Below the pieces are notes generated by a model. The model was not told where the DNA came from and did no database searches. It saw only the letters and a program-made list of their open reading frames with translations. Of a stretch of 29,123 nt of DNA, positions 1 through 29,123 are shown in pieces. The DNA comes from a virus: the IMG/VR virus record IMGVR_UViG_3300020171_002226, positions 1 through 29,123 of that record. One strand, written 5' to 3'. Made by a program: the position numbers and the translations under genes. Positions within the stretch are counted from its first letter, which is position 1; each line of letters begins with the position of its first letter.

Positions 1-333
1 AAAAAATACAAAAAAGAGAAAATTAAAGAATATTATGAAAATCACAAAAAAGAATATTATGAAAATAATAAAGATAAAATTATAGAACGAGCAAAAGAGT
101 ATTTACAAACCCCAAAGGGTAGAGAAATAAATAGAAAAACACAATCTAAAAGAAGACGAAATTTAGAGTGGAATCCATTAAATGAATATTTTGAAAATTC
201 CGAAGGACACCATATTAATAAAAATTGGCATTTTAAAGGACATTCGGTAATTAAAAATAAAAACATGGAACCTATAAATACTGTAGTATTTTTAATAATG
301 CAAAATATTGATAGATTTCAAATGTTGGATTAG
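1..333 (+). CDS. HNH-family putative homing endonuclease, C-terminal part (copy A)
   Basis: The frame is open from the window edge to TAG at 331-333, so the N-terminus lies outside. It reads KEYYEN repeats, then TPKGREINRK, then a core NPLNEYFENSEGHHINKN..HFKGHSV, then NMEPINTVVF and MQNIDRF. The same order occurs in four other copies here (near 4421-4854, 6447-7007, 23195-23650, 28572-29123). The complete ones start with a CxxC...C zinc finger. The GHH pair followed by a distal His suggests an HNH/His-Me nuclease, presumably a free-standing homing endonuclease; the activity is inferred. This is the only copy on the + strand. It lacks the VIYIP segment between GHHIN and the distal His, so it may be degenerate. 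Confidence 0.7.
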   Translation, partial: KKYKKEKIKEYYENHKKEYYENNKDKIIERAKEYLQTPKGREINRKTQSKRRRNLEWNPLNEYFENSEGHHINKNWHFKGHSVIKNKNMEPINTVVFLIMQNIDRFQMLD

Positions 334-344
334 GTGAAAAAATA

Positions 345-466
345 ATGACAAATGTAAGGTATTAAATTGTAAAAACAATCTAAATAAAACTTGCACCGCT
401 GATGACATAATCATTGATGAAGAATCCAAATGTTGGATTTTTGTAAATGGATTAGGTAAAAAATGA
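345..466 (+). pseudogene. DUF1540-like Cys-rich mini-protein, start apparently frameshifted
   Basis: From 353 the frame reads CKVLNCKNNLNKTCTADD, then IIIDEESKCWIFVNGLGKK and TGA at 464-466. The Cys spacing (C-x4-C-x7-C-x13-C) with CTADDI resembles the small metal-binding DUF1540 family. No start codon exists in this frame. The ATG at 345 is one base out of frame; adding one A would give MTKCKVLNC. It is either a frameshifted gene or uses an unrecognised start. Its stop overlaps the next ATG (ATGA), so it looks like the first gene of a small operon. Confidence 0.45.
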
Positions 467-3516: not shown

Positions 3517-3530
3517 AAACTATAAATACT
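3517..3530 (+). promoter_or_regulatory. TATA promoter
   Basis: AAACTATAAATACT followed by AATAAAACAAT, 17 bp before ATG 3547. It drives the run 3547-4424. Confidence 0.7.
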
Positions 3531-4199: not shown

Positions 4200-4424
4200 A
4201 TGTCTAGAACATTTCGGTGGTGGAATAATCCCCGCATAAAAAAATTATCTAAGCGATTAAAAGACCTTGTAAGAAGTAAAATAAATCCATTTTATTACCA
4301 ACATGAAATAAAGGAAGTAAGAATATATCTTCATAGGCAATTCAGACACATGAACCGACTAAATGTTAAGCGAGGAATAGAACCTGAAAAAGAAATAAAA
4401 ACAGGTGGATGGTTGACACATTAA
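4200..4424 (+). CDS. Basic hypothetical protein (74 aa)
   Basis: AGGAG stands 9 bp before ATG 4200. The product is strongly basic (RIKKLSKRLKDLVRSK, RIYLHRQFRHMNRL), as expected of a nucleic-acid-binding protein, and ends GGWLTH. The stop shares bases with the convergent stop of an HNH-family pseudogene, so the original C-terminus may have been altered by that insertion. Function unknown. Confidence 0.55.
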   Translation: MSRTFRWWNNPRIKKLSKRLKDLVRSKINPFYYQHEIKEVRIYLHRQFRHMNRLNVKRGIEPEKEIKTGGWLTH

Positions 4425-4854
4425 ATATTCTGCATGGTTAAAAAGAAAACAGTATTAATATTTTTAGTTACTGAATGCCATGATTTAGGAATATAAATTA
4501 TATTAATATGATGTCCTTCGGAATTTTCAAACCATTCGTTTAATGAATTATATCCTAAATTTCTTTCACGTTTGGCTATCGCTTTTTAATGGCTTCTTTA
4601 CCGTTAGGTGTTTGTGAATATTCTTTATGATATTCTTTATTATCTTGATAATATTCTTTATTTTTTTCTTTAATTTCCTCTTTATTATCTTGACGATATT
4701 CTTTAAGTTCTTCTTTATTATCCTGATAATATTCTTTAATTTTTTCTTTATTATATTCTTTTTTATTTATTTTAGAACAACATTTTTGCCAGCGGCGATT
4801 ACTTTTAAATTCCAAACCACAGATAACGCAGATCATTACTATAATGAATTTCAT
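4421..4854 (-). pseudogene. HNH-family putative homing endonuclease, frameshifted (copy B)
   Basis: Minus strand from MKFIIVMICVICGLEFKS (ATG 4854-4852), with a zinc-finger start and KEYYQDNKEE-type repeats, to GKEAIKKR and a stop near 4576. The rest of the protein (NLGYNSLNEWFENSEGHHIN, then IIYIPKSWHSVTKNIN and MQNI) continues in another frame to TAA at 4423-4421. One lost base near 4576-4580 explains the break. It also lacks the Cys-x3-Cys knuckle of copies C and E. It ends on the stop codon of the convergent 4200-4424 gene. Confidence 0.75.
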
Positions 4855-4864
4855 TTTTAAGACA

Positions 4865-4900: not shown

Positions 4901-6406
4901 ATGAAAAATATGATTGATGAATGTAGCAAAAAAATTGTTAAATTCGAGGACATGTACGATACCACTTTGATCGATAAACAATTACTCATACAAAAAAATG
5001 AGGAGGACGATCCTGATTATGTCGAGTTTGATGAAAAAGATTATGATGCTGCATACGCTGAAGAAGTCAAAATCGCCAACATAGAACTTAAGGCTTTTGC
5101 TGCTGATACATCAACCACTTTCGACGGAATTGTGAATAAATATAGTATGTTAGTTGGGCTAACAGGCAGAAGTTATGATCCGGCAACCAAGATGATGTTC
5201 TACTCGGTTTTGGCGAATCAAATTAAAACGAATAAGTTTTCTATGGATTCTAAACTAATTGATTTGCGGTTAAATATCCTTCTACAACTTAAAGCTGGAC
5301 ATGGTAAGAAAAACTATGAGTATTTTATTCGCAGAACTATCGAAGGACTTGGTCGGCAATACCAGGAGCCGACTTCATATCATCCAGAACAATTTGTTGG
5401 TAAAGTGATTGTGACACAACAGAAGAATGAAGACCCCGATTATACACCAGTATACGGTACGCTTGCCGCTGATTTTTTAGTAATTGATGAAGCACACGCT
5501 ATGCTTACGCGAAAAGATAATGAAGAATGTCTTAGATTTATTAGAACCGCCTTGGATCCGATCGGTGATAATACTATAATGAAGAAACAAGTTAACGTTC
5601 CAGACGAGCATAAATTGAAATATGATCCGGTATGTACTATGTTGCTGCTTACGCAGCCAATTGCTAACATTAGTGAAGATTTATTAATGAGAGGAAGTTT
5701 TCGACGATTCATTGTTTTATTTATTACTACAACATTAGAAGAGCGTCTTGCGGCAAGAAGAAGCGCAAGATTTTTAACTTTACGTGAAGATGTGCATAAT
5801 ATAATTTGGATAAAATGGATTGAACTTAATAAGGCCTTATCTCAATATAGCAACTTACAATATTTCTGCCCGGATAGTACTGCGATAGATGATTATCTGG
5901 ATACATTAGGTTTCAATGCGCGCGAGATTAATCAGGAAGTAGTGGAGTATTATAACACCTCACAATTTACCATAAAACAAAATTTATTTAAAATGGCGAT
6001 AGTTCGCGCTGTAGTTGAACACCATGCTGAAAATGGTAATACCATCACCATTCAAGAAACTCATATTAAAAAAGCAATTGAGGATTGGCATGCCATCTGG
6101 ATACCACAAATACACTGGATCTCGCGGCAAATGCAGATTACATCATTAAATCCTATCGGCTGGAGTGATAAACATCACTCCGTGGTGATGAATTTACTTG
6201 ATAAAATGCCGGGTAAAGCCTGTGAATACTCTGTGATTGTTACGGCGGCTGTGGCTGTATTCGTTGGTGTTGATAGCAGTAAGCGTGCGAAAGTGTATAA
6301 GATAATGAATGATTTAGTGTCATGGGGGATGATTATAAAAACTCCTATACCGATGACTAAAAAATTTATGGTAACAATGGACTTAAGTGCGGCGAAAATT
6401 AAATAA
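4901..6406 (+). CDS. Divergent MCM-like AAA+ replicative helicase
   Basis: A 501-aa protein with an AAA+ layout in MCM order. A degenerate Walker A (AGHGKKN, residues 132-138) is followed 60 residues later by Walker B DFLVIDEAHA (191-200), a sensor-1-like LLLTQP (248-253), and LLMRGSFRRFIVLF (261-274), where MCM proteins have LLSRFDLIF with the arginine finger. A C-terminal region rich in short helices (about 410-501) could be the winged helix. MCM rings unwind DNA at forks. The N-terminal 120 residues are shorter than the usual MCM N-terminal domain and show no zinc finger. The Walker A lacks the usual Ser/Thr after Lys. Other AAA+ families are possible, but the neighbouring replisome genes support a helicase. 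Confidence 0.6.
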   Translation: MKNMIDECSKKIVKFEDMYDTTLIDKQLLIQKNEEDDPDYVEFDEKDYDAAYAEEVKIANIELKAFAADTSTTFDGIVNKYSMLVGLTGRSYDPATKMMFYSVLANQIKTNKFSMDSKLIDLRLNILLQLKAGHGKKNYEYFIRRTIEGLGRQYQEPTSYHPEQFVGKVIVTQQKNEDPDYTPVYGTLAADFLVIDEAHAMLTRKDNEECLRFIRTALDPIGDNTIMKKQVNVPDEHKLKYDPVCTMLLLTQPIANISEDLLMRGSFRRFIVLFITTTLEERLAARRSARFLTLREDVHNIIWIKWIELNKALSQYSNLQYFCPDSTAIDDYLDTLGFNAREINQEVVEYYNTSQFTIKQNLFKMAIVRAVVEHHAENGNTITIQETHIKKAIEDWHAIWIPQIHWISRQMQITSLNPIGWSDKHHSVVMNLLDKMPGKACEYSVIVTAAVAVFVGVDSSKRAKVYKIMNDLVSWGMIIKTPIPMTKKFMVTMDLSAAKIK

Positions 6407-6425: not shown

Positions 6426-6460
6426 GGTGTTCCTATTTATAATAAATTAGTATGATTGAG
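6426..6460. repeat. Scar matching the 3' end of the Cas4-like gene
   Basis: GGTGTTCCTATTTA at 6426-6439 equals 28543-28556, the codons for WCSYL of the Cas4-like gene. Nine bases of that gene are missing, and AATAAAyTArTATGATTGAG then continues on both sides into the end of the HNH-family genes. This looks like a piece of the Cas4-like gene carried along with copy C. Confidence 0.65.
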
Positions 6461-7007
6461 ATTCAAGAAAAACCCAAGCTTTTATATTTATTTCATCCAT
6501 GTTTCTATTTTTGGTAACTGAATGCCGAATACTTTCATGCAATTCTGTTGGAACATAAATTACGTTAATTTCATCGAGATGATGTCCATGGCTTCCTTCA
6601 AACCATTCATTTAAAGGATTAAAACCTAAATTTCGAACGCGTTTAGCATTAGCTCTTTTTCTAACTTCTTTACCTTTAGGAGTTTGTTTATATTCTTTTT
6701 GATGTTCGTTAATTTTTTCTTTATTATCTTGATAATATTCTTGTTGGTATTTTTTAATTTGTTCTTTATTATCTTGATAATATTCTTTACTCTCTTCTTT
6801 ATTATCTTGTCGGTATTCTTTACCATATTCGTTAATTTCTTCTTTATTATTTTGATAATATTCTTTTTGATAGTCTTTTTGATATTCTTTTTGATATTCT
6901 TTTTGATTTATTTCATAACATCCTTTAGAACAGTATTTCTGAATATTATTATAACTTTCGAATTCTAAACCACAAATTAAACATATCATCACCATTATAA
7001 ATTTCAT
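6447..7007 (-). CDS. HNH-family putative homing endonuclease (copy C, intact)
   Basis: A 186-aa minus-strand product and the best complete member of the family here. Order: zinc finger MICLICGLEFES..KYCSKGCYE, about 80 residues of KEYYQDNKEE-type repeats (charged, helical, probably an extended linker), KGKEVRKRANAKRVRNLG, and the catalytic-looking core NPLNEWFEGSHGHHLDE, VIYVPTELHESIRHSV, NMDEIN. It presumably cuts DNA and promotes its own spread; no activity is proven. It lies just past the convergent MCM-like gene. Its C-terminus FLESQSY is shared with copy E, its closest relative here. Confidence 0.75.
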   Translation of the reverse strand: MKFIMVMICLICGLEFESYNNIQKYCSKGCYEINQKEYQKEYQKDYQKEYYQNNKEEINEYGKEYRQDNKEESKEYYQDNKEQIKKYQQEYYQDNKEKINEHQKEYKQTPKGKEVRKRANAKRVRNLGFNPLNEWFEGSHGHHLDEINVIYVPTELHESIRHSVTKNRNMDEINIKAWVFLESQSY

Positions 7008-14509: not shown

Positions 14510-15775
14510 ATGATTTATACTAAAACCTTTGTAATTCCTAAGAATAGAAACATTGAAAATTTTATACTCAATACTATAAATGAAGATGGTGATGAGCCGA
14601 ATCATACCGTATTAAGATATTATATTTCAAAAGTTAATGATTATACTGTTGAAGTTACGGCATCAATACTTGAGGATGGTTATCGTATGGGTCGCGATTA
14701 TAAAATACCATTTGTACCAAATAATAAATTCGATGTTGTAATGATTATTCCTACGGGCGTTCGCGCTGAAATTGGCGGTTTTATTGCTGATGCCACACCA
14801 ACGGTAAATGTACTTGCTGAGGTTTGCGATAAAGTAATTGTTCATCCAAATGTGGTTAATGGTTCGTTTTTAAATTATGCCAGAGAAAACGTACTTTACG
14901 TTGAGGGTAGTATTCTTGATAATTTTTTACAGAATAAAATAGCACTATCTGAGGTTCTTCAAAATAAAATTGGAGTTATCATTGATCGTGGTGCGCTCGA
15001 AAGTGAAAAAACTTTAAATACCGTAATAAATGTTATTGAATCGCTACGAGTTATTACGGGTATTAATTGTATTGGTTATAAAATTACTAATGCGGCGATC
15101 GGTGGTCACGCAATCCAAATGGAATCGGGTGCTTTTTGTGGTGAAGTAAGTAATCCAAATACACTGATTGAAGCAGGAGAAGAATTAATAAAAGCTGGCG
15201 CAACGGCACTGGCAGTAGCAACACGCATTAGTATTGATAATCTTGAGCGAGATTTAGATAAATATTTCCGTGGAGAATTAGCGAATCCGTTCGGCGGAAC
15301 CGAAGCATTAATTAGTCACACTCTTTGCGAAATTTTACATGTTCCCGCCGCACATGCGCCAATACTTTCACAATCTGAAATAAATTATTATAATGAATGC
15401 GGGATAGTTGATCCACGTGCAGCACCGGAAATTGCATCCCCGAATTACCTTGGCTGCATTCTGAAGGGACTGAATAAATCTCCACAACTAAGTAAAAATG
15501 GAATCACACTTTCAGATGTGAAAGCGATCGTAATACCTTATGGATGTTGTGGTGGAATACCCGCATTAGCGGCACAAAAATTTAATATACCCCTAATTGC
15601 AGTAAAAGAAAATGAAACCTGCTTGAATGTAACCCCAGAATTAATGGGATTTAAAAATTACATTATTGCGGAAAATTATTGGGAAGTTGTCGGCATCATA
15701 TCGGCGCTTAAAGCAGGTATATCGCCAGATATGCTTAGACGACCAATAAAACCAATTCAAGAATTACGGTCATAA
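14510..15775 (+). CDS. DUF3326 family protein (about 421 aa)
   Basis: MIIPTGVRAEIGGFIADATP, NVLAEVCDKVIVHPNVVNGS and IPYGCCGGIPALAA are characteristic of DUF3326, an uncharacterised family known from cyanobacteria and methanogens. The Gly-rich motifs and conserved PTGVRAEIGG suggest a ligand- or nucleotide-binding enzyme, but no reaction is established. The start at 14510 is preferred over in-frame ATG 14492 because of the TATA position. A GGTNN array preceded by a small inverted repeat follows the stop. Host-derived cargo is likely. Confidence 0.75.
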   Translation: MIYTKTFVIPKNRNIENFILNTINEDGDEPNHTVLRYYISKVNDYTVEVTASILEDGYRMGRDYKIPFVPNNKFDVVMIIPTGVRAEIGGFIADATPTVNVLAEVCDKVIVHPNVVNGSFLNYARENVLYVEGSILDNFLQNKIALSEVLQNKIGVIIDRGALESEKTLNTVINVIESLRVITGINCIGYKITNAAIGGHAIQMESGAFCGEVSNPNTLIEAGEELIKAGATALAVATRISIDNLERDLDKYFRGELANPFGGTEALISHTLCEILHVPAAHAPILSQSEINYYNECGIVDPRAAPEIASPNYLGCILKGLNKSPQLSKNGITLSDVKAIVIPYGCCGGIPALAAQKFNIPLIAVKENETCLNVTPELMGFKNYIIAENYWEVVGIISALKAGISPDMLRRPIKPIQELRS

Positions 15776-15786
15776 ATTATGACATT

Positions 15787-15825
15787 ACGGGAAGGTTTGG
15801 TACGGTGCGGTTAGGTGAGGTACGG
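15787..15825 (+). repeat. GGTNN pentamer array 1
   Basis: After ACGGGAAGG the sequence runs GGTTT GGTAC GGTGC GGTTA GGTGA GGTAC GG: six 5-bp units with fixed GGT. The stop codon of the DUF3326 gene lies in the inverted repeat TCATAAATTATGA just upstream. The strong G bias stands out in AT-rich DNA. Period 5 rules out a codon explanation; GG every 5 bases fits a two-tier G-quadruplex. Confidence 0.8.
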
Positions 15826-15948: not shown

Positions 15949-16488
15949 ATGAAGTCAATACAAGTAGAAATAACGGGAATATCAGCATTATTATGTAATC
16001 GTTTCCCGATAGAAGAATTTGGAACAGAAAAATCAAAAGCAAGTAAAAAAGTATATATACCAACCGAAATAGCAGAAAAAAAACTATATAAAGATCATGA
16101 TGGAAAGCCATGTATGTTAGGGGAACATATATTTCAAAGTATGCGTAAAGCTGCGGTAGATTTTAAGTTTGAAAAAAAGAAAAGCTTTAAAGATGTTATA
16201 ACATCCGGCATCGCTATAATGCCCGAAGATATACCGCTTATCACGGATAAGCCTTATGAAATTGACGCAAGACCAGTTGTAATTCAGCGAGCAAGAGTCT
16301 TATCATGGCGCCCAAAATTCACTAATTGGAAAATGAAATTCACGATACAGATACTTGATGATGAAAATATTTCAATAAATAACGTGAAAGAAATACTTGA
16401 AAAAGCTGGCAACACTAAGGGAATTGGTGATTATAGACCAAGATTTGGTAGATTCATGGTCACTTCATTCCAGGAATTAAAGTCATAA
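15949..16488 (+). CDS. Hypothetical phage-like protein with RAMP-like Gly-rich loop (179 aa)
   Basis: Begins MKSIQVEITGISALLCNRFP, a beta strand typical of ferredoxin-like folds, and ends with AGNTKGIGDYRPRFGRFMVT. GxGxxRxRxGR near the C-terminus recalls the glycine-rich loop of RAMP proteins (Cas5/6/7 group), and VVIQRARVLSWRPKFTNW is a conserved-looking core strand. I have no proof of homology. No CRISPR array or other cas effector gene is nearby. It may bind RNA or DNA; function unknown. It has its own promoter and ends in an inverted repeat plus GGTNN array like its two neighbours. Confidence 0.65.
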   Translation: MKSIQVEITGISALLCNRFPIEEFGTEKSKASKKVYIPTEIAEKKLYKDHDGKPCMLGEHIFQSMRKAAVDFKFEKKKSFKDVITSGIAIMPEDIPLITDKPYEIDARPVVIQRARVLSWRPKFTNWKMKFTIQILDDENISINNVKEILEKAGNTKGIGDYRPRFGRFMVTSFQELKS

Positions 16489-16502
16489 ATTATGACAACT
16501 TT

Positions 16503-16556
16503 ACGGGAAGGTAATGTCCGGTAAGGTTCGGTGTGGTATGGTTGGGTAAGGTATGG
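16503..16556 (+). repeat. GGTNN pentamer array 2
   Basis: TACGGGAAGG then about nine units (GGTAA TGTCC GGTAA GGTTC GGTGT GGTAT GGTTG GGTAA GGTAT GG), one of them degenerate (TGTCC). Upstream, TCATAAATTATGA contains the stop of the previous gene, as in array 1. The last unit contains the ATG (16553) of the following HNH gene. Confidence 0.8.
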
Positions 16557-16831
16557 CACAATATCAACGTAATCGGCGCGTACTATTAAAAGAAGAATCC
16601 ATCGAATTTATTGGTGGTAAAGTATGCGTCGTTTGCGGTGAAAATTCTCTTCCAATCTGTTGTTACGATTTTCATCATACGAAAGGCGCGAAAGAAAATA
16701 ACATATCAAAATTATTAAATACTAAAACGGAATTAGATGAAGAATTAAAAACGGAATTAAAAAAATGTGTTATACTTTGCGCAAATTGTCATAGAATTAT
16801 AACTTATGAAAAAATTACATTCATCAAATGA
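16553..16831 (+). CDS. Small HNH endonuclease-like protein (92 aa)
   Basis: CVVCGENSLPICCYDFHHTKG and CVILCANCHRIITYE carry the CxxC zinc pairs and the HH motif of compact phage HNH proteins; the C-terminal CANCHR is typical. No NUMOD or other DNA-binding domain is present, so it could be a minimal mobile endonuclease. It is bracketed by GGTNN arrays 2 and 3 and starts inside array 2. Confidence 0.75.
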   Translation: MAQYQRNRRVLLKEESIEFIGGKVCVVCGENSLPICCYDFHHTKGAKENNISKLLNTKTELDEELKTELKKCVILCANCHRIITYEKITFIK

Positions 16832-16841
16832 TGAAAACTTT

Positions 16842-16875
16842 ACGGGCAGGTGAGGTTTGGTTTGGTGAGGTAAGG
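16842..16875 (+). repeat. GGTNN pentamer array 3
   Basis: ACGGGCAGG then GGTGA GGTTT GGTTT GGTGA GGTAA GG. The inverted repeat TTCATC/GATGAA just upstream includes the HNH gene stop, matching the layout of arrays 1 and 2. Confidence 0.8.
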
Positions 16876-16921
16876 AATATTTAAATGCATTGAAGTTACA
16901 GTTTTTGTAACTTTGGTGTAC

Positions 16922-22947: not shown

Positions 22948-23205
22948 ATGCGAATGATGGTGTCAATACCTATGAATCACTTCCTTAAATTTGAGGTGAT
23001 TTATACTACATCTAAAATTGATTTGTATAAAGAACATGTTGAGATGAGTAAAATTCTATCTGCCGATATTGTTAATATACAATCGCCATATACACGAGAG
23101 GCACTTTCACAAGTAATAAATAAAGTAAAAAATTTATTTCCTACAACGGCAACATATCGATTATGGAAGAATAAAAATTTTTATGTTGAAGATACTATAG
23201 AATAA
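22948..23205 (+). CDS. Hypothetical protein (85 aa)
   Basis: ATG follows the PCNA-like stop directly (TAAATG), so the two are coupled. It reads MNHFLKFEVIYTTSKIDLYK to TATYRLWKNKNFYVEDTIE; mixed alpha/beta, no Cys. No family is recognised; position suggests an accessory of the replication module. The end overlaps the convergent HNH-family copy D by 11 bp. Confidence 0.55.
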   Translation: MRMMVSIPMNHFLKFEVIYTTSKIDLYKEHVEMSKILSADIVNIQSPYTREALSQVINKVKNLFPTTATYRLWKNKNFYVEDTIE

Positions 23206-23650
23206 ATCTATCAATATTTTGCATGACTAAAAAGAAATGTGCAACGGTGTTAATAGGTTCCATATTAATATTTTTAGTTACTGAATGCCCCTTAAAATGA
23301 TAATTTTTAGGTATATAAATTACGTCATTTCTATTAATATGATGTCCTTCACTATTTTCGAACCACCCATTTAATGGTTTAAATCCTAAATTTCTTTTTC
23401 GTTTAGCCATCGCTCTTTTAATAATCTCTTTACCTTTAGGTGTTTTTGAATATTCTTTATCATATTCTTTACGTTCTTCTTTATGATTTTGAGAATATTC
23501 TTTAGCTTGTTCTTTAAATTGTTCTTTATTATCTTGATAATATTCTTTTTGATATTTTTTATTGAATTTTTTATTATAACATTCTTTAGAACAGTATTTT
23601 TGACGATTACCCGTTTTAATAAATTCAATACCACAAATTTCGCATATCAT
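23195..23650 (-). CDS. HNH-family putative homing endonuclease (copy D)
   Basis: Minus strand, ATG 23650-23648: MICEICGIEFIKTGNRQKYC then SKECYNKK, a Cys4 finger, a shorter KEYYQDNKEQ-type linker, TPKGKEIIKRAMAKRKRNLG and the core NPLNGWFENSEGHH-like region (here KPLNGWFENSEGHHIN) with VIYIP and HFKGHSV. Upstream, the MKFI start of copy C is kept but the next codon is TAG, so translation must begin at the inner Met. Its end overlaps the stop of the convergent 22948 gene. Confidence 0.75.
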   Translation of the reverse strand: MICEICGIEFIKTGNRQKYCSKECYNKKFNKKYQKEYYQDNKEQFKEQAKEYSQNHKEERKEYDKEYSKTPKGKEIIKRAMAKRKRNLGFKPLNGWFENSEGHHINRNDVIYIPKNYHFKGHSVTKNINMEPINTVAHFFLVMQNIDRFIL

Positions 23651-23697
23651 CAACTATATAAATTTCATTTATAGACAATAATAAATTAAATAATAGT

Positions 23698-23731: not shown

Positions 23732-24712
23732 ATGATAACTATTAAAATTGGTAATTCTTTTGATTTAATTAAAGAATTACCAGATAAATCTATTGATTGT
23801 GTCATGACAAGTCCACCATATTGGAATTTACGGGATTATAATCATCCGGATCAATTGGGATTAGAAAAAACACCAGAAGAATATATTAAAAAATTAATTG
23901 ATTTTTTTGATAATGTTAAGATGAAATTAAAAGATACTGGAAATTTGTTCTTAAACTTAGGAGATACATATTCAGGTTCAAAAGTTGGGAATACAAACGG
24001 CGTTTATGCTGATGTTGTTGACAAAACGAAAGCATACGCTACAACATCATCTTTTAAGAAAAATAAAGGAAATTTACCAACTAAATGCCTTTGTATGCTC
24101 CCTCAACGTTTTGCGTGGAATATGATAGAATGTGGTTGGATTTTACGTAATGAAATAATATGGCATAAAAAAAATCATATGCCAGAAAGTGTGACAGATA
24201 GGTTAACAAAAGCGCATGAGATTGTTTATCACTTTGTTAAGCAAGGCAAATATTACTATAATTTAGATGCGATACGAGAACCACATGAAACACAAGAAAA
24301 AAGACCAATGGGTATTATCAGAAGTCGTGAATGGGGTTATAATGGAAAATACGAAGGCAATAAACTACATGAAGATTTCGGAAGTCCGAGAACACAGCGG
24401 AAACACGAGGTTTCTCAAGTAGTGGCATCCAATACAAACGGCAAAAATCCTGGTGATGTTTGGAGTATTGTAACTCAACCATACCCTGAGAGCCATTTTG
24501 CTACTTTCCCTTTAGAACTTATTAGGCGGCCTATTCTTGCGGGATGTCCCGAAAACGGTAATGTTCTTGATCCTTTCGCAGGAAGTGGTACGGTTGGTGA
24601 ATTTTGTCGTAAAAATAATAGAAATGCAATATTATTTGAATTAAATCCAGATTATAAAAAATTAATAGAAGATAGAAGTTTGTCGAATATAGTAAATTTG
24701 TGCGAATTATGA
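23732..24712 (+). CDS. DNA methyltransferase, N4-cytosine or N6-adenine type
   Basis: Catalytic motif TSPPYW (26-31) near the N-terminus and SAM-binding DPFAGSG (280-286) near the C-terminus give the beta-class order. The S in SPPY is more common in N4-cytosine enzymes, but specificity cannot be read. The target-recognition region lies between about 90 and 240. No restriction partner is visible, so it is probably an orphan enzyme protecting or marking the element's DNA. It is coupled to the polymerase gene by an ATGA overlap. Confidence 0.9.
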   Translation: MITIKIGNSFDLIKELPDKSIDCVMTSPPYWNLRDYNHPDQLGLEKTPEEYIKKLIDFFDNVKMKLKDTGNLFLNLGDTYSGSKVGNTNGVYADVVDKTKAYATTSSFKKNKGNLPTKCLCMLPQRFAWNMIECGWILRNEIIWHKKNHMPESVTDRLTKAHEIVYHFVKQGKYYYNLDAIREPHETQEKRPMGIIRSREWGYNGKYEGNKLHEDFGSPRTQRKHEVSQVVASNTNGKNPGDVWSIVTQPYPESHFATFPLELIRRPILAGCPENGNVLDPFAGSGTVGEFCRKNNRNAILFELNPDYKKLIEDRSLSNIVNLCEL

Positions 24713-26283
24713 ACATACCGTTAATAGCAAAAGCAATTGTAGATAAGTTTACACAAGATCAGAAATTAGAAATTTGGTTTAATGGTCATGTATCATATGT
24801 TGACGCACCATTTCAGCCATACTTTTATTCTACATACCCACTTAAGTTAGACGCTAATAAATATCCTGCCGAGCAATTAACTAAAACGTTATTTAGTAAT
24901 TTACAACCAACAACCGTTTACAAGTATTCATTTAAGAATACACTAACCGCAAAAGAGCATCAAGAAGAGGACAGTATCGAACATCAAATTAGTTATACTG
25001 ATAAAGTTTTAATTGATGATCATAATTTCTTTACAAAATATCCAAATGAGCAACCACTTAAAGTAATGCACTTCGATATTGAAACCGATACAATCGGTAT
25101 GTTTCCTACACCTGAACGAAATGCCATAATTGCAATTGGTGCCAGGTGTGGAGATCGTAAAGCAATATTTATGGCTGAAACCTATGATAACGATAAAATA
25201 ATATTGAATAAGTTCTTTGACTTTTTACAAGAAACTGATCCAGATATCATTACACATTACAACGGGGATAGTTTTGATATACCGTATATGATGGAACGCA
25301 TGAAGATAAATCAGATACCATTAAGTCGATGGTCGCGCAACAATAAAGAGATACATAAATATAAGAATACAATAACTATTGGCGGGCGAGTATCATTTGA
25401 CCTTTACCATGAAGCACAGCACGACCAAACACTTTCGGGGATTAAGAACCTCAAGATGAAAACGCTGGCAAAATGGTTAAAAATGCCGGATATAAAGGAA
25501 GTACCATATAGTGAAATGCGCAATATGGTTAACACACCTAAGTTACGTGACTATTTAATATCTGATATTGAAATTACTGAAAAATTATTTAACATTTATT
25601 TTAAAAATGTAGTAGTTTTGGCTGAAATGAATAAAATACCTTTAAATTTAATGATTGGCGCTAATGCGAGTTTTTTGCCAAATATTATTACAGGTCGAAA
25701 ATTTCATAAACTTAACATTATATCGGATAAATATAATGGTGCGCGCCATCCTAAATATATCAAAAATAAGCGCGGCGCGTTAGTAGATACGTTCGCGCCC
25801 GGATTATATAATCATCCCATATATAAAGTGGATTATGCATCGCAATATCCGAGAATAGTTCAAACATTTAATCTATCACCAGAAACAGTCAGGATTATAC
25901 GATATGATTTATATAATGGGGTTTATAATTTTGACATTTCTAATCCTGATAAATATATCTTCAGTATACCTGATGAAACTTCAAACAAAAATATCATTAT
26001 TTCAATCGATATGTCTAAACGTGGATTTTTATCACAGTTCATGGAAGATGTTTTAAATGAACGGTTCGATATCAAGAATCGGCTAAAAACCTTAGAAAAA
26101 GGATCGCCTGAATATGAGGGACTCCACGTTCGCCAGAATGCACTCAAAGTGGTTTGTAACGTCCAAACGGGATATCACGGACAAGAATACGCACTATATG
26201 GTGATTTGGGAACGTATTGTGCTATCACAGGCTTAGGAAGATGGTATTTAAATTTAGCAATGGAGTATATAAAAAATGCCTAA
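24709..26283 (+). CDS. Family B DNA polymerase, N-terminal part (exonuclease and palm up to motif B)
   Basis: ATG 24709 overlaps the methyltransferase stop; an upstream GTG at 24700 is less likely. 3'-5' exonuclease motifs: FDIET (Exo I, about 122-126), HYNGDSFD (Exo II, about 183-190), YLISD (Exo III, about 282-286). Motif A is VDYASQYPRI with Asp about 375; motif B is KVVCNVQTGYHG (about 480-491), where the usual NSxYG Tyr is replaced by Thr. The protein stops at YIKNA, just before motif C, which is on a separate gene at 26914. Both parts must associate to give a working polymerase. 24709-26283 ends overlapping the ATG of an HNH gene. Confidence 0.9.
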   Translation: MNIPLIAKAIVDKFTQDQKLEIWFNGHVSYVDAPFQPYFYSTYPLKLDANKYPAEQLTKTLFSNLQPTTVYKYSFKNTLTAKEHQEEDSIEHQISYTDKVLIDDHNFFTKYPNEQPLKVMHFDIETDTIGMFPTPERNAIIAIGARCGDRKAIFMAETYDNDKIILNKFFDFLQETDPDIITHYNGDSFDIPYMMERMKINQIPLSRWSRNNKEIHKYKNTITIGGRVSFDLYHEAQHDQTLSGIKNLKMKTLAKWLKMPDIKEVPYSEMRNMVNTPKLRDYLISDIEITEKLFNIYFKNVVVLAEMNKIPLNLMIGANASFLPNIITGRKFHKLNIISDKYNGARHPKYIKNKRGALVDTFAPGLYNHPIYKVDYASQYPRIVQTFNLSPETVRIIRYDLYNGVYNFDISNPDKYIFSIPDETSNKNIIISIDMSKRGFLSQFMEDVLNERFDIKNRLKTLEKGSPEYEGLHVRQNALKVVCNVQTGYHGQEYALYGDLGTYCAITGLGRWYLNLAMEYIKNA

Positions 26284-26917
26284 AGGTGTATATAAAAAAT
26301 CTGAAGAACATAAAAGAAAATTATCAATAGTTCAAAAATTAAATCCCTCAAAAGGATTTTTAGGAAAACACCATACCCAAAAAGTAAAGGATGAGCAATC
26401 TCAAAGAATTAGTGGTAAACCATCTTTGAAAAGGGGTATCAAGCTTTCTCAAGAAATTAAAAGAAAAATATCGATAAATCATGCTAATGTTTCTGGAAAA
26501 AATAATCCAAGTTATAAAGAAAAAATAAAAAAGATTTGTTTAGTTTGTGGTAACGAATTTGAAGATATACCATCTCACAAAAATCGAAAATTTTGTTCAC
26601 GAAAATGTTATGGAATATATAAATCGAAAAATTTTATTGGAAAAACGCATCCAAATTGGCAAGGTGGAATTTCATTTGAACCTTATTGTGAAAAATTTAA
26701 TGAGAAAAAGAGGGAAGAGATTCGCAATCAATATGGAAGAAAGTGTGTAATTTGTGGTAGAGATGAAAAAGACAATATAACTAAAACCGGAAAACAATGG
26801 AAATTATCAGTACATCATATTGATAGTGACAAAGAACAAGGATGTGATGGTAAGCAATGGAAGTTAGCACCACTGTGCATGTATTGTCACAATAGTAAAA
26901 GAATGGAGATATTATGA
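26276..26917 (+). CDS. HNH homing endonuclease with NUMOD3 motifs, splitting the polymerase gene
   Basis: 213 aa: MPKGVYKKSEEHKRKLSIVQ, GFLGKHHTQKVKDEQ and RGIKLSQEIKRKIS are NUMOD3-type repeats; CLVCGNEFEDI with FCSRKCYG is a zinc finger; HPNWQGGI is the linker; the HNH nuclease is CVICGRDEK, SVHHIDSDKEQG and LCMYCHNSKR. It overlaps polymerase part 1 by 8 bp and part 2 by 4 bp and uses a frame different from both. The gene fills the gap exactly, leaving no room for an intron. Confidence 0.88.
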   Translation: MPKGVYKKSEEHKRKLSIVQKLNPSKGFLGKHHTQKVKDEQSQRISGKPSLKRGIKLSQEIKRKISINHANVSGKNNPSYKEKIKKICLVCGNEFEDIPSHKNRKFCSRKCYGIYKSKNFIGKTHPNWQGGISFEPYCEKFNEKKREEIRNQYGRKCVICGRDEKDNITKTGKQWKLSVHHIDSDKEQGCDGKQWKLAPLCMYCHNSKRMEIL

Positions 26918-27525
26918 AAATTATCAGTTGCGATACAGATGGAATTTATTGTGATTCAGATGTGGATATTCAGAAATTAAATGATTATTTAGATAAAAAA
27001 ACTATAGAGGTTTTTTATCTAAATAATCATTTACACATGGAAAAAGATAAATATGATATGGCGTTCTTCCGGGAAACTAAGGGTAAGAATTATATATTAA
27101 AAGATGGTGATAAAATTTCCATACACGGTGCTAGTTTTAAGGGTTCCCACATGCCTGTTTTCTTTGATAAAGTTCTAGATCAAGTTGTAAATGATTTATT
27201 TAACAACATATCTAATCGGACTGTCGATGTTAGATCGTTCCCCATTGAAAATCTGATCCAGAACATTAAAGTTAAGGATGAAGCGTCTTACAAATCTGAC
27301 GGATCACTTTCTATGCAATTAATACAAGCAGTTAAGCGCGAAATGCCAGATATTAAACTTAAAGATGATGATCAATTAGCTTACCTAAAAACTAATAAGG
27401 GTTATGAATTAGTTATGCCCGGAAAAGTGTATGGGGAGATTGACTGGGATTATTATCAGGGAATTATTGATAAAATATATGAACGGCTTAAAATTGAGGA
27501 TAAAAAACAATTAACTTTTGGATAA
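26914..27525 (+). CDS. Family B DNA polymerase, C-terminal part (motif C and thumb)
   Basis: Starts MKIISCDTDGIYCDSDVDIQ: SCDTDG is motif C (YxDTD), supplying the second pair of catalytic Asp residues. FFRETKGKNYIL corresponds to the KKRY region, followed by the thumb (PVFFDKVLDQVVNDLFNNIS). Joined to part 1 the total is about 730 aa, a normal compact viral PolB. Its ATG overlaps the HNH stop (ATGA), so all three genes are translated in a coupled series. The polymerase palm is thus assembled from two chains. Confidence 0.88.
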   Translation: MKIISCDTDGIYCDSDVDIQKLNDYLDKKTIEVFYLNNHLHMEKDKYDMAFFRETKGKNYILKDGDKISIHGASFKGSHMPVFFDKVLDQVVNDLFNNISNRTVDVRSFPIENLIQNIKVKDEASYKSDGSLSMQLIQAVKREMPDIKLKDDDQLAYLKTNKGYELVMPGKVYGEIDWDYYQGIIDKIYERLKIEDKKQLTFG

Positions 27526-27561: not shown

Positions 27562-27891
27562 ATGAATTTTAAACCAGATGCATATTTTGATCATAAAAAT
27601 CGATATCTTATTAATGTAGATTTTGACGGAACCTTAACTAATGGAGAGAATGGATGGATAGTAGAGCCAACACCAAATGTAGATCATATTCGTATAATAA
27701 ATAAATTATATCGAAAAGGTTTTATAATTATTATTCATACTGCACGAACGTGGGATGCCGCACCTGAAACTGTTGCGTGGTTAATACGTAATAATGTACC
27801 ATATCATGGTCTGTTTATGTTCAAAGGCGGTAGTGACGCATATCTAGATGATAAATCTAGTAGTTTTGAAGAATTGGAGAAATTATTGTGA
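27562..27891 (+). CDS. HAD-family phosphatase (109 aa)
   Basis: Motif I VDFDGTLT (19-26; nucleophile D20 and acid D22), motif II HTART (59-63), Lys 88 in FKGGSDAYLDD and Asp 96/97 for motif IV. No cap domain, so a minimal capless HAD like those in phages, possibly acting on nucleotides or polynucleotide ends. The next gene starts at GTG overlapping its stop (GTGA). Confidence 0.82.
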   Translation: MNFKPDAYFDHKNRYLINVDFDGTLTNGENGWIVEPTPNVDHIRIINKLYRKGFIIIIHTARTWDAAPETVAWLIRNNVPYHGLFMFKGGSDAYLDDKSSSFEELEKLL

Positions 27892-28580
27892 ACATTTCAA
27901 AATCAAAAATAAAAACTTTAGAAAATTGTCCATTATGTTTTAAATGGCAATATTTAGAGCATAAGAAACCTGACATACCGCCCGCAGCAGTAACGAGAAT
28001 TGGATTAGATGTTCACGATATATTTAATAAATTCTATAATGTTATCAAAATCGATGAAATTGGTGATCAACCCTTAGAATACTTCAAAAATTCAATGGAA
28101 ATACTACCCCAATACCGTGAAATTTTCAATCTATTCTGTAATTTTCAAGCGAGTCGATGGAATAATACTACTGACAAAACCACCTTTATACCTGTTATAA
28201 GAGAGCGAAAGTTTATTAATAAAGATGAGGTAGGTGTCGTAGATGCTGTTCATTATGATTGTAATACTGGTGAATACATGGTTTTGGATTATAAGTCTGG
28301 CGTATCGAATCCTTCTAACTTAAGATTTGAACTTGCATATTACGCCAAGATCGTGAATGATAGTGGTATATTAGATAAGCCGGTAAAATATATCGGCGCT
28401 TATGGATATAAGACTGGGGAGATATTTTGTGAAGATATAAAGACAAGGTCTTATAATCTGATGCTTCAGAAAATTGCTGATTTTAGAGCCAATAAATTTG
28501 AAACAATGGAATTCCCTAAAAAGCCCGGCTTTGCGTGTAATTGGTGTTCCTATTTACCGAGTTGCAATAAACTAATATGA
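27888..28580 (+). CDS. Cas4-like / RecB-family PD-(D/E)XK nuclease with Fe-S Cys cluster
   Basis: GTG start at 27888 overlaps the HAD stop. C14 (ENCPLC), H43 in VHDIFNKFY, D119 in GVVDAV, D134 and K136 in MVLDYKSG are the Cas4/RecB catalytic set; C217, C220 and C226 at the end complete a four-Cys cluster as in Cas4 and AddB. Such enzymes resect DNA ends and in viruses assist recombination or replication. No CRISPR array is present, so this is not evidence for a CRISPR locus. The stop is shared with the convergent HNH copy E. Confidence 0.88.
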   Translation: MNISKSKIKTLENCPLCFKWQYLEHKKPDIPPAAVTRIGLDVHDIFNKFYNVIKIDEIGDQPLEYFKNSMEILPQYREIFNLFCNFQASRWNNTTDKTTFIPVIRERKFINKDEVGVVDAVHYDCNTGEYMVLDYKSGVSNPSNLRFELAYYAKIVNDSGILDKPVKYIGAYGYKTGEIFCEDIKTRSYNLMLQKIADFRANKFETMEFPKKPGFACNWCSYLPSCNKLI

Positions 28581-29123
28581 TTGAGATTCAAGAAAAGCCC
28601 AAGATTTTATATTTATCTCATTCATATTTATATTTTTAATTACACTATGTGCAATACTTCTGTGTAATTTTGTTGGAATATAGATTATATTAATTTCGTC
28701 GAGATGGTGTCCTTCTGAACCTTCAAACCATTCATTTAAAGGATTAAAACCCAAATTCCTTTTACGTTTAGATTGTGCTTTTTGATGTGATTTTTTGCCT
28801 TTAGGCGTTTTTAAATATTCTTTTTGATATCCTTTAATTTTTTCTTTATTATCTTGATAATATTCTTTACTCTCTTCTTTATTATCTTGATAATATTCTT
28901 TACATCGTTTATTAAGTTCTTCTTTATTATCTTGATAATATTCTTGATAATATTCTTTATTATCTTGATTATATTCTTTTTGATATTTTTTAATTTCTTC
29001 TTTATTTTCTTCACGATATTCTTTACGTTTTTCTTTATGATTAATTTTAGAACATTCTTTAGAACAGCATTTTTGAATATTATGATAACTTTTAAATTCT
29101 AAACCACAAATTAAACATATCAT
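28572..29123 (-). CDS. HNH-family putative homing endonuclease (copy E, reaches window edge)
   Basis: Minus strand, 183 aa from MICLICGLEFKSYHNIQKCC at the very edge; by comparison with copy C about six more residues (MKFIMV-like) may precede it. Zinc finger C..C with CCSKECSK, then the longest KEYYQDNKEE-type linker here, then GKKSHQKAQSKRKRNLG and NPLNEWFEGSEGHHLDE, IIYIPTKLHRSIAHSV, NMNEIN. Ends FLESQSY like copy C. It overlaps the stop of the Cas4-like gene by 9 bp. Confidence 0.75.
   Translation of the reverse strand: MICLICGLEFKSYHNIQKCCSKECSKINHKEKRKEYREENKEEIKKYQKEYNQDNKEYYQEYYQDNKEELNKRCKEYYQDNKEESKEYYQDNKEKIKGYQKEYLKTPKGKKSHQKAQSKRKRNLGFNPLNEWFEGSEGHHLDEINIIYIPTKLHRSIAHSVIKNINMNEINIKSWAFLESQSY

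Follow-up and report, generated by a model that had tools for sequence, protein, structure and literature searches.

A 14-base scrap of a Cas4-like gene at the 3' end of a putative homing endonuclease gene in an archaeal-type virus

In the T4-like phages, free-standing endonuclease genes such as seg and mob occur several to a virus, between genes or at gene ends, and their flanks move along with them. Some are found in new places or inside genes, for example mobE in nrdA of Aeh1 and a seg-like gene beside a split gene 43 (PMC2988022). Co-conversion of flanks, illegitimate repair of double-strand breaks into ectopic sites, and transposition-like endonuclease insertions have all been described in this group (PMC2988022; PMC3984707). 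Here we analyze a 29,123-base virus contig from IMG/VR (the window) that carries five copies of one endonuclease-like gene family, A to E, and in which copy C ends beside what appears to be a fragment of another gene. By analogy, copy C may be a case of T4-type flank carriage, a principle already known from phage homing endonucleases. It differs from the seg and mob cases in that its nuclease module is matched by no profile library, the virus is archaeal-type, and what speaks for carriage is no cross but a fossil remnant of the end of a foreign gene.

Two other known systems bear comparison. NUMOD3-containing homing endonucleases of the HNH and GIY-YIG types resemble the present family since the same C-terminal module is joined to NUMOD3 in proteins of other viruses, yet in copies A to E a Zn-ribbon and KEYYQDNKE repeats stand where those proteins have NUMOD3. 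The exon co-conversion tracts that flank mobile group I introns likewise consist of a short piece of donor flank that marks a transfer and its direction. In contrast, no intron is involved here and the scrap lies at a nonhomologous site; therefore, the joining would not have been plain homing. When a mobile gene ends in a scrap of a foreign gene, the scrap directly records a past move and its polarity. In this instance it points to ectopic spread, beyond homing alone, of an endonuclease family missed by profile libraries, in viruses that have been little sampled.

The contig and its endonuclease family

The gene set of the contig is archaeal-type, with an AAA clamp-loader-like ATPase, a B-family DNA polymerase (PolB), an ATP-dependent DNA ligase, a glutamate dehydrogenase, and an M42 peptidase. 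Distant relatives of the Cas4-like and polymerase proteins occur in tailed viruses of haloarchaea, namely Halorubrum viruses of the Hafunaviridae. No near relatives of the Cas4-like protein, of the product of gene 4901-6406, or of PolB were found among IMG/VR viral contigs, and the virus group is little sampled and poorly known. The contig begins and ends (positions 1 and 29123) within members of the endonuclease family, copies A and E; these repeats are thus probably where the assembly broke.

In the family, a Zn-ribbon-like segment at the N terminus and charged KEYYQDNKE repeats precede a C-terminal module whose HH..H..H..NM..IN pattern is invariant in 12 aligned sequences. A confident structure model of the module (pLDDT of 85) shows two strands with one short and one long helix. 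The module has no match among Pfam and NCBIfam profiles and no significant Foldseek match to PDB or viral structures; thus, neither a known profile nor a known fold places it in the HNH (His-Me finger) group, and the PHROG HNH match of copy D is limited to its N-terminal part (residues 3 to 62). In other viruses, the same module is fused to NUMOD3 repeats (L111, 2.3e-15; L112, 4.3e-7) or joined to varied Zn-binding and charged N-terminal regions. This shuffling of a nuclease module among DNA-binding modules such as NUMOD3 is what is expected of a homing endonuclease, and because it is typical of these enzymes, 'HNH' is a reasonable, though putative, label for copies A to E, which would be nucleases. 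No relatives of the endonuclease were found in GTDB genomes.

The features discussed are collected in Table 1. Copies A and B are decayed, which fits a family whose members are gained and then decay, as in the homing cycle. The ends of copies B, D, and E fall exactly on the stop codon of a neighboring gene, and copy C is kept apart from its neighbor by the scrap.

Table 1. Endonuclease family copies, scraps, and associated features in the window
Feature	Position	Strand	Description
Copy A	1..333	+	5'-truncated by window; lacks VIYIP strand (decayed); C terminus QMLD encoded in scrap
Copy B	4424..4855	-	Decayed: frameshift and losses in catalytic module; end overlaps stop of gene 4200-4424
Copy C	6447..7007	-	Intact ORF; Zn-ribbon, KEYYQDNKE repeats, and C-terminal HH..H..H..NM..IN module, from family alignments
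Copy D	23195..23653	-	Intact; end overlaps stop of gene 22948-23205
Copy E	28572..29123	-	ORF, sister of C; window end cuts at its start codon
14-base Cas4-like scrap, 3' end of copy C	6426..6439	+	Exact match to 28543-28556; two matches only in window
T + AATAAA between scrap and copy C stop codon	6440..6446	+	By alignment; 9 Cas4 bases replaced by 1
Source-type sequence of scrap	28543..28556	+	Codons W-C-S-Y-L of Cas4-like cysteine motif, by translation and alignment
Cas4-like PD-(D/E)XK nuclease	27888..28580	+	Overlaps copy E stop codon; Pfam PDDEXK_1 6e-14; exonuclease PHROGs
Scrap at 3' end of copy A	319..351	+	Duplicate of end of small Zn-type reading frame with 14 bases deleted; aligned to 427-470
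Small Cys-rich reading frame (KCKVLNCKNNLNKTC...CWIFVNGLGKK)	341..463	+	By translation; no clear start codon; resembles copy A scrap

The flank shared by copies C and E

Local alignment of copies C and E gives 76% nucleotide identity over 594 columns (75% at the protein level), continues across both stop codons, and breaks off precisely at 6426 and 28543, with no C-E similarity farther out. Past the stops, both loci carry AATAAA (6441-6446 and 28566-28571) and then GGTGTTCCTATTTA (6426-6439 and 28543-28556), in the same order, as the earlier note had described. Between these elements E has nine bases (CCGAGTTGC) and C a single T, which agrees with the nine extra bases reported at E. The similarity past the coding end on which that reading depended is present in this alignment, and it reaches into GGTGTTCCTATTTA. 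Most of the longer flank given at the same time, AATAAAyTArTATGATTGAG, lies inside the endonuclease coding sequence (from 6447), leaving AATAAA and the 14-mer outside it.

At E, GGTGTTCCTATTTA forms the codons W-C-S-Y-L of the Cas4-like gene, followed by PSC; at C it is noncoding, in a 40-base gap between the stop codons of gene 4901-6406 and copy C. The Cas4-like protein combines a PD-(D/E)XK core (the PDDEXK_1 match spans residues 3 to 227, its whole length) with a C-terminal cysteine cluster, C-NWC-SYLPS-C, that includes the conserved WCSYLPSC, and the Cas4-like proteins of HRTV-7 and HRTV-2 also bear a C-terminal cysteine-bearing segment. A search of IMG/VR with the motif pattern returned 48 contigs, none a confirmed homolog. 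On this coding evidence, the 14 bases are assigned to the Cas4-like gene by origin. Since AATAAA may belong to the end of the endonuclease gene, only the 14-mer is certain Cas4 sequence.

Exact matches to GGTGTTCCTATTTA occur at the C and E loci only, the next best sites in the window carrying three mismatches, so that the 14-mer is not a common sequence here, as it might have been. On dinucleotide frequencies, 2e-4 exact matches would be expected per window, and fewer still in register. Neither 14,206 control 40-mers from the window nor 20,000 random sequences yielded a score as good against the Cas4 end (0 in each set), although in this comparison the margin is small because of the lenient gap cost.

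Possible histories of copy C

The explanation that we consider best overall, with a probability of roughly 0.6, is that the endonuclease spread by break repair and illegitimate joining and carried the end of the Cas4-like gene to locus C. Copies A to E would be free-standing homing-endonuclease-like genes that spread in this way within the genome of this virus or across related viruses. Copy E, or a relative occupying its position, would have lain on the 3' end of the Cas4-like gene in convergent orientation. The 3' end of this endonuclease gene would then have been copied into the gap that follows gene 4901-6406, carrying along about 30 Cas4-like bases, and a loss of nine bases during or after joining would have left 14 in the noncoding gap. 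Because the scrap derives from coding sequence of a conserved cysteine motif, its own direction of transfer is from the Cas4-like gene to C; the pathway of repair is inferred, as is the extent of the copying, be it the entire gene or just the 3' end. Four points count against this explanation: the certain scrap is just 14 bases long, it has been perfectly retained, IMG/VR yielded neither an empty site nor an intermediate, and no profile or structure match ties the family to an HNH nuclease.

The retention of the scrap raises the question of its age. C and E pair in trees with support of 90/90 for the whole module and 84/83 without the tails; thus, by sequence, they are sister copies with the tails in or out. 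Their dS is about 1.0 in the domain core, compared with 0.37 in the last 20 codons and 0.26 in the first 30. The last 70 or so aligned nucleotides, scrap included, hold 5 differences, against 28% in the adjoining domain core (hypergeometric P of 1.4e-4, for a tail length picked after seeing the data). The scrap is identical at 14 of 14 positions despite the core dS of about 1, which is unlikely under neutral change for a copy as old as the core. The shared 3' end may therefore reflect a later short conversion, constraint, or a fast-evolving core, and since it is so much more alike than the core, later conversion or constraint fits as well as one-step copying. The earlier note read the flank as recording both a mobility event and its direction; the direction holds for the scrap, but the contrast between 3' end and core makes a transfer of the whole of gene C together with it one of several readings. 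It had also derived C from an E-like locus by gene conversion or end-joining, as the simplest history. The sister relationship and the scrap agree with such an origin, and a single event is indeed the simplest history, yet others fit as well, and the two pathways cannot be told apart.

A possible, if somewhat unlikely, alternative takes C and E as old sisters, with the 3' end of C (about 75 bases, scrap included) later overwritten from E by short gene conversion. The similarity of the tail, its lower dS, and the intact scrap are what this history predicts, but the tail's significance suffers from the choice of length mentioned above, the first 30 codons are alike too, so that the core may just be fast, and conversion into a locus without Cas4 would still need an end-joining step. 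The same homology would also fit the reverse course, in which the Cas4-like gene first lay at locus C and was moved or duplicated to E with the endonuclease, leaving a remnant at C; the window indeed holds only one intact Cas4-like gene. We regard this as quite improbable, for there is no further Cas4 similarity at the joint 6425/6426, and the gene beside E sits in a replication row with the PolB parts. In HRTV-7 a Cas4-like gene and PolB likewise share one region, about 3.3 kb apart, which favors E as its old place.

Perfect identity amid diverged sequence could also mean that the 14 bases are a functional signal, or an endonuclease target site common to both loci, rather than a copied scrap. 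This is very improbable given that the 14-mer is absent at A, B, D, and locus L001 and that in E it is plain coding sequence for the conserved cysteine motif of the Cas4-like protein. As to a chance match or an assembly artifact, the window does end inside copies A and E, where assembly probably broke. We nevertheless reject both: chance, because the 14-mer is unique to two loci, against the small expected number, and no control scored as well; and a mis-join, because C and E differ at scattered sites throughout, the indel in the scrap included. Among IMG/VR contigs, none carries the exact C/E tail; the flanking genes lack close relatives in that collection, and it yielded neither an intermediate nor a related virus whose site is empty, which leaves some room for a former Cas4-like gene at locus C.

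A second scrap and other elements

Flank carriage is not unique to C, since a similar scrap, derived from a different gene, lies at copy A. The scrap, at 319-351, duplicates the end of the small Cys-rich reading frame 100 bases downstream (427-470), from which it differs by the loss of 14 bases between TGGATT repeats; neither 20,000 random sequences nor 9,467 window 33-mers included one that scored as well. The last residues of copy A (QMLD) are read from the scrap. This scrap is independent of that at copy C, and two scraps in one contig suggest that flank carriage could trace the spread of these genes. With copies B, D, and E on their neighbors' stop codons and A and C beside scraps of other genes' ends, one could go further and propose that the family regularly lands on stop codons, carries gene ends around, and remodels the 3' ends of viral genes, although we hold this general pattern to be rather improbable.

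At locus L001 (4600-4740), two tandem elements of about 40 bases with TTATAAATGAAATTTATA lie directly past an endonuclease gene; five copies occur in that virus (G001), most of them ahead of ordinary genes. Because it thus resembles a promoter of general use in G001, we rejected TTATAAATGAAATTTATA as a terminal signal of the endonuclease itself, and the element that bears it is probably a promoter of that virus. In the window, AAACTATAAATACTAATAAAACAAT is repeated before genes (for example at 3517, 18539, 23698, and 27527) and is probably the main promoter of this virus.

A different HNH gene (26276-26917, PHROG 1271) lies between the polymerase N-terminal part (24700-26283) and the frame at 26914-27525. 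The N-terminal part, compared with the HRTV-7 polymerase, ends at residue 589, directly before the YGDTDS motif, and 26914-27525 begins with a DTDG-like motif. The region 24700-27525 thus looks like a polymerase gene in pieces, though BLASTP gave no confirmation for the C-terminal part. Elsewhere, a ACTTTACGGGaAGGT..GGT..GGT element, a pattern with no exact match among the loci compared, occurs in three copies past gene ends (15771-15823, 16487-16539, and 16826-16878), two of which flank a small HNH gene (16553-16831) as direct repeats.
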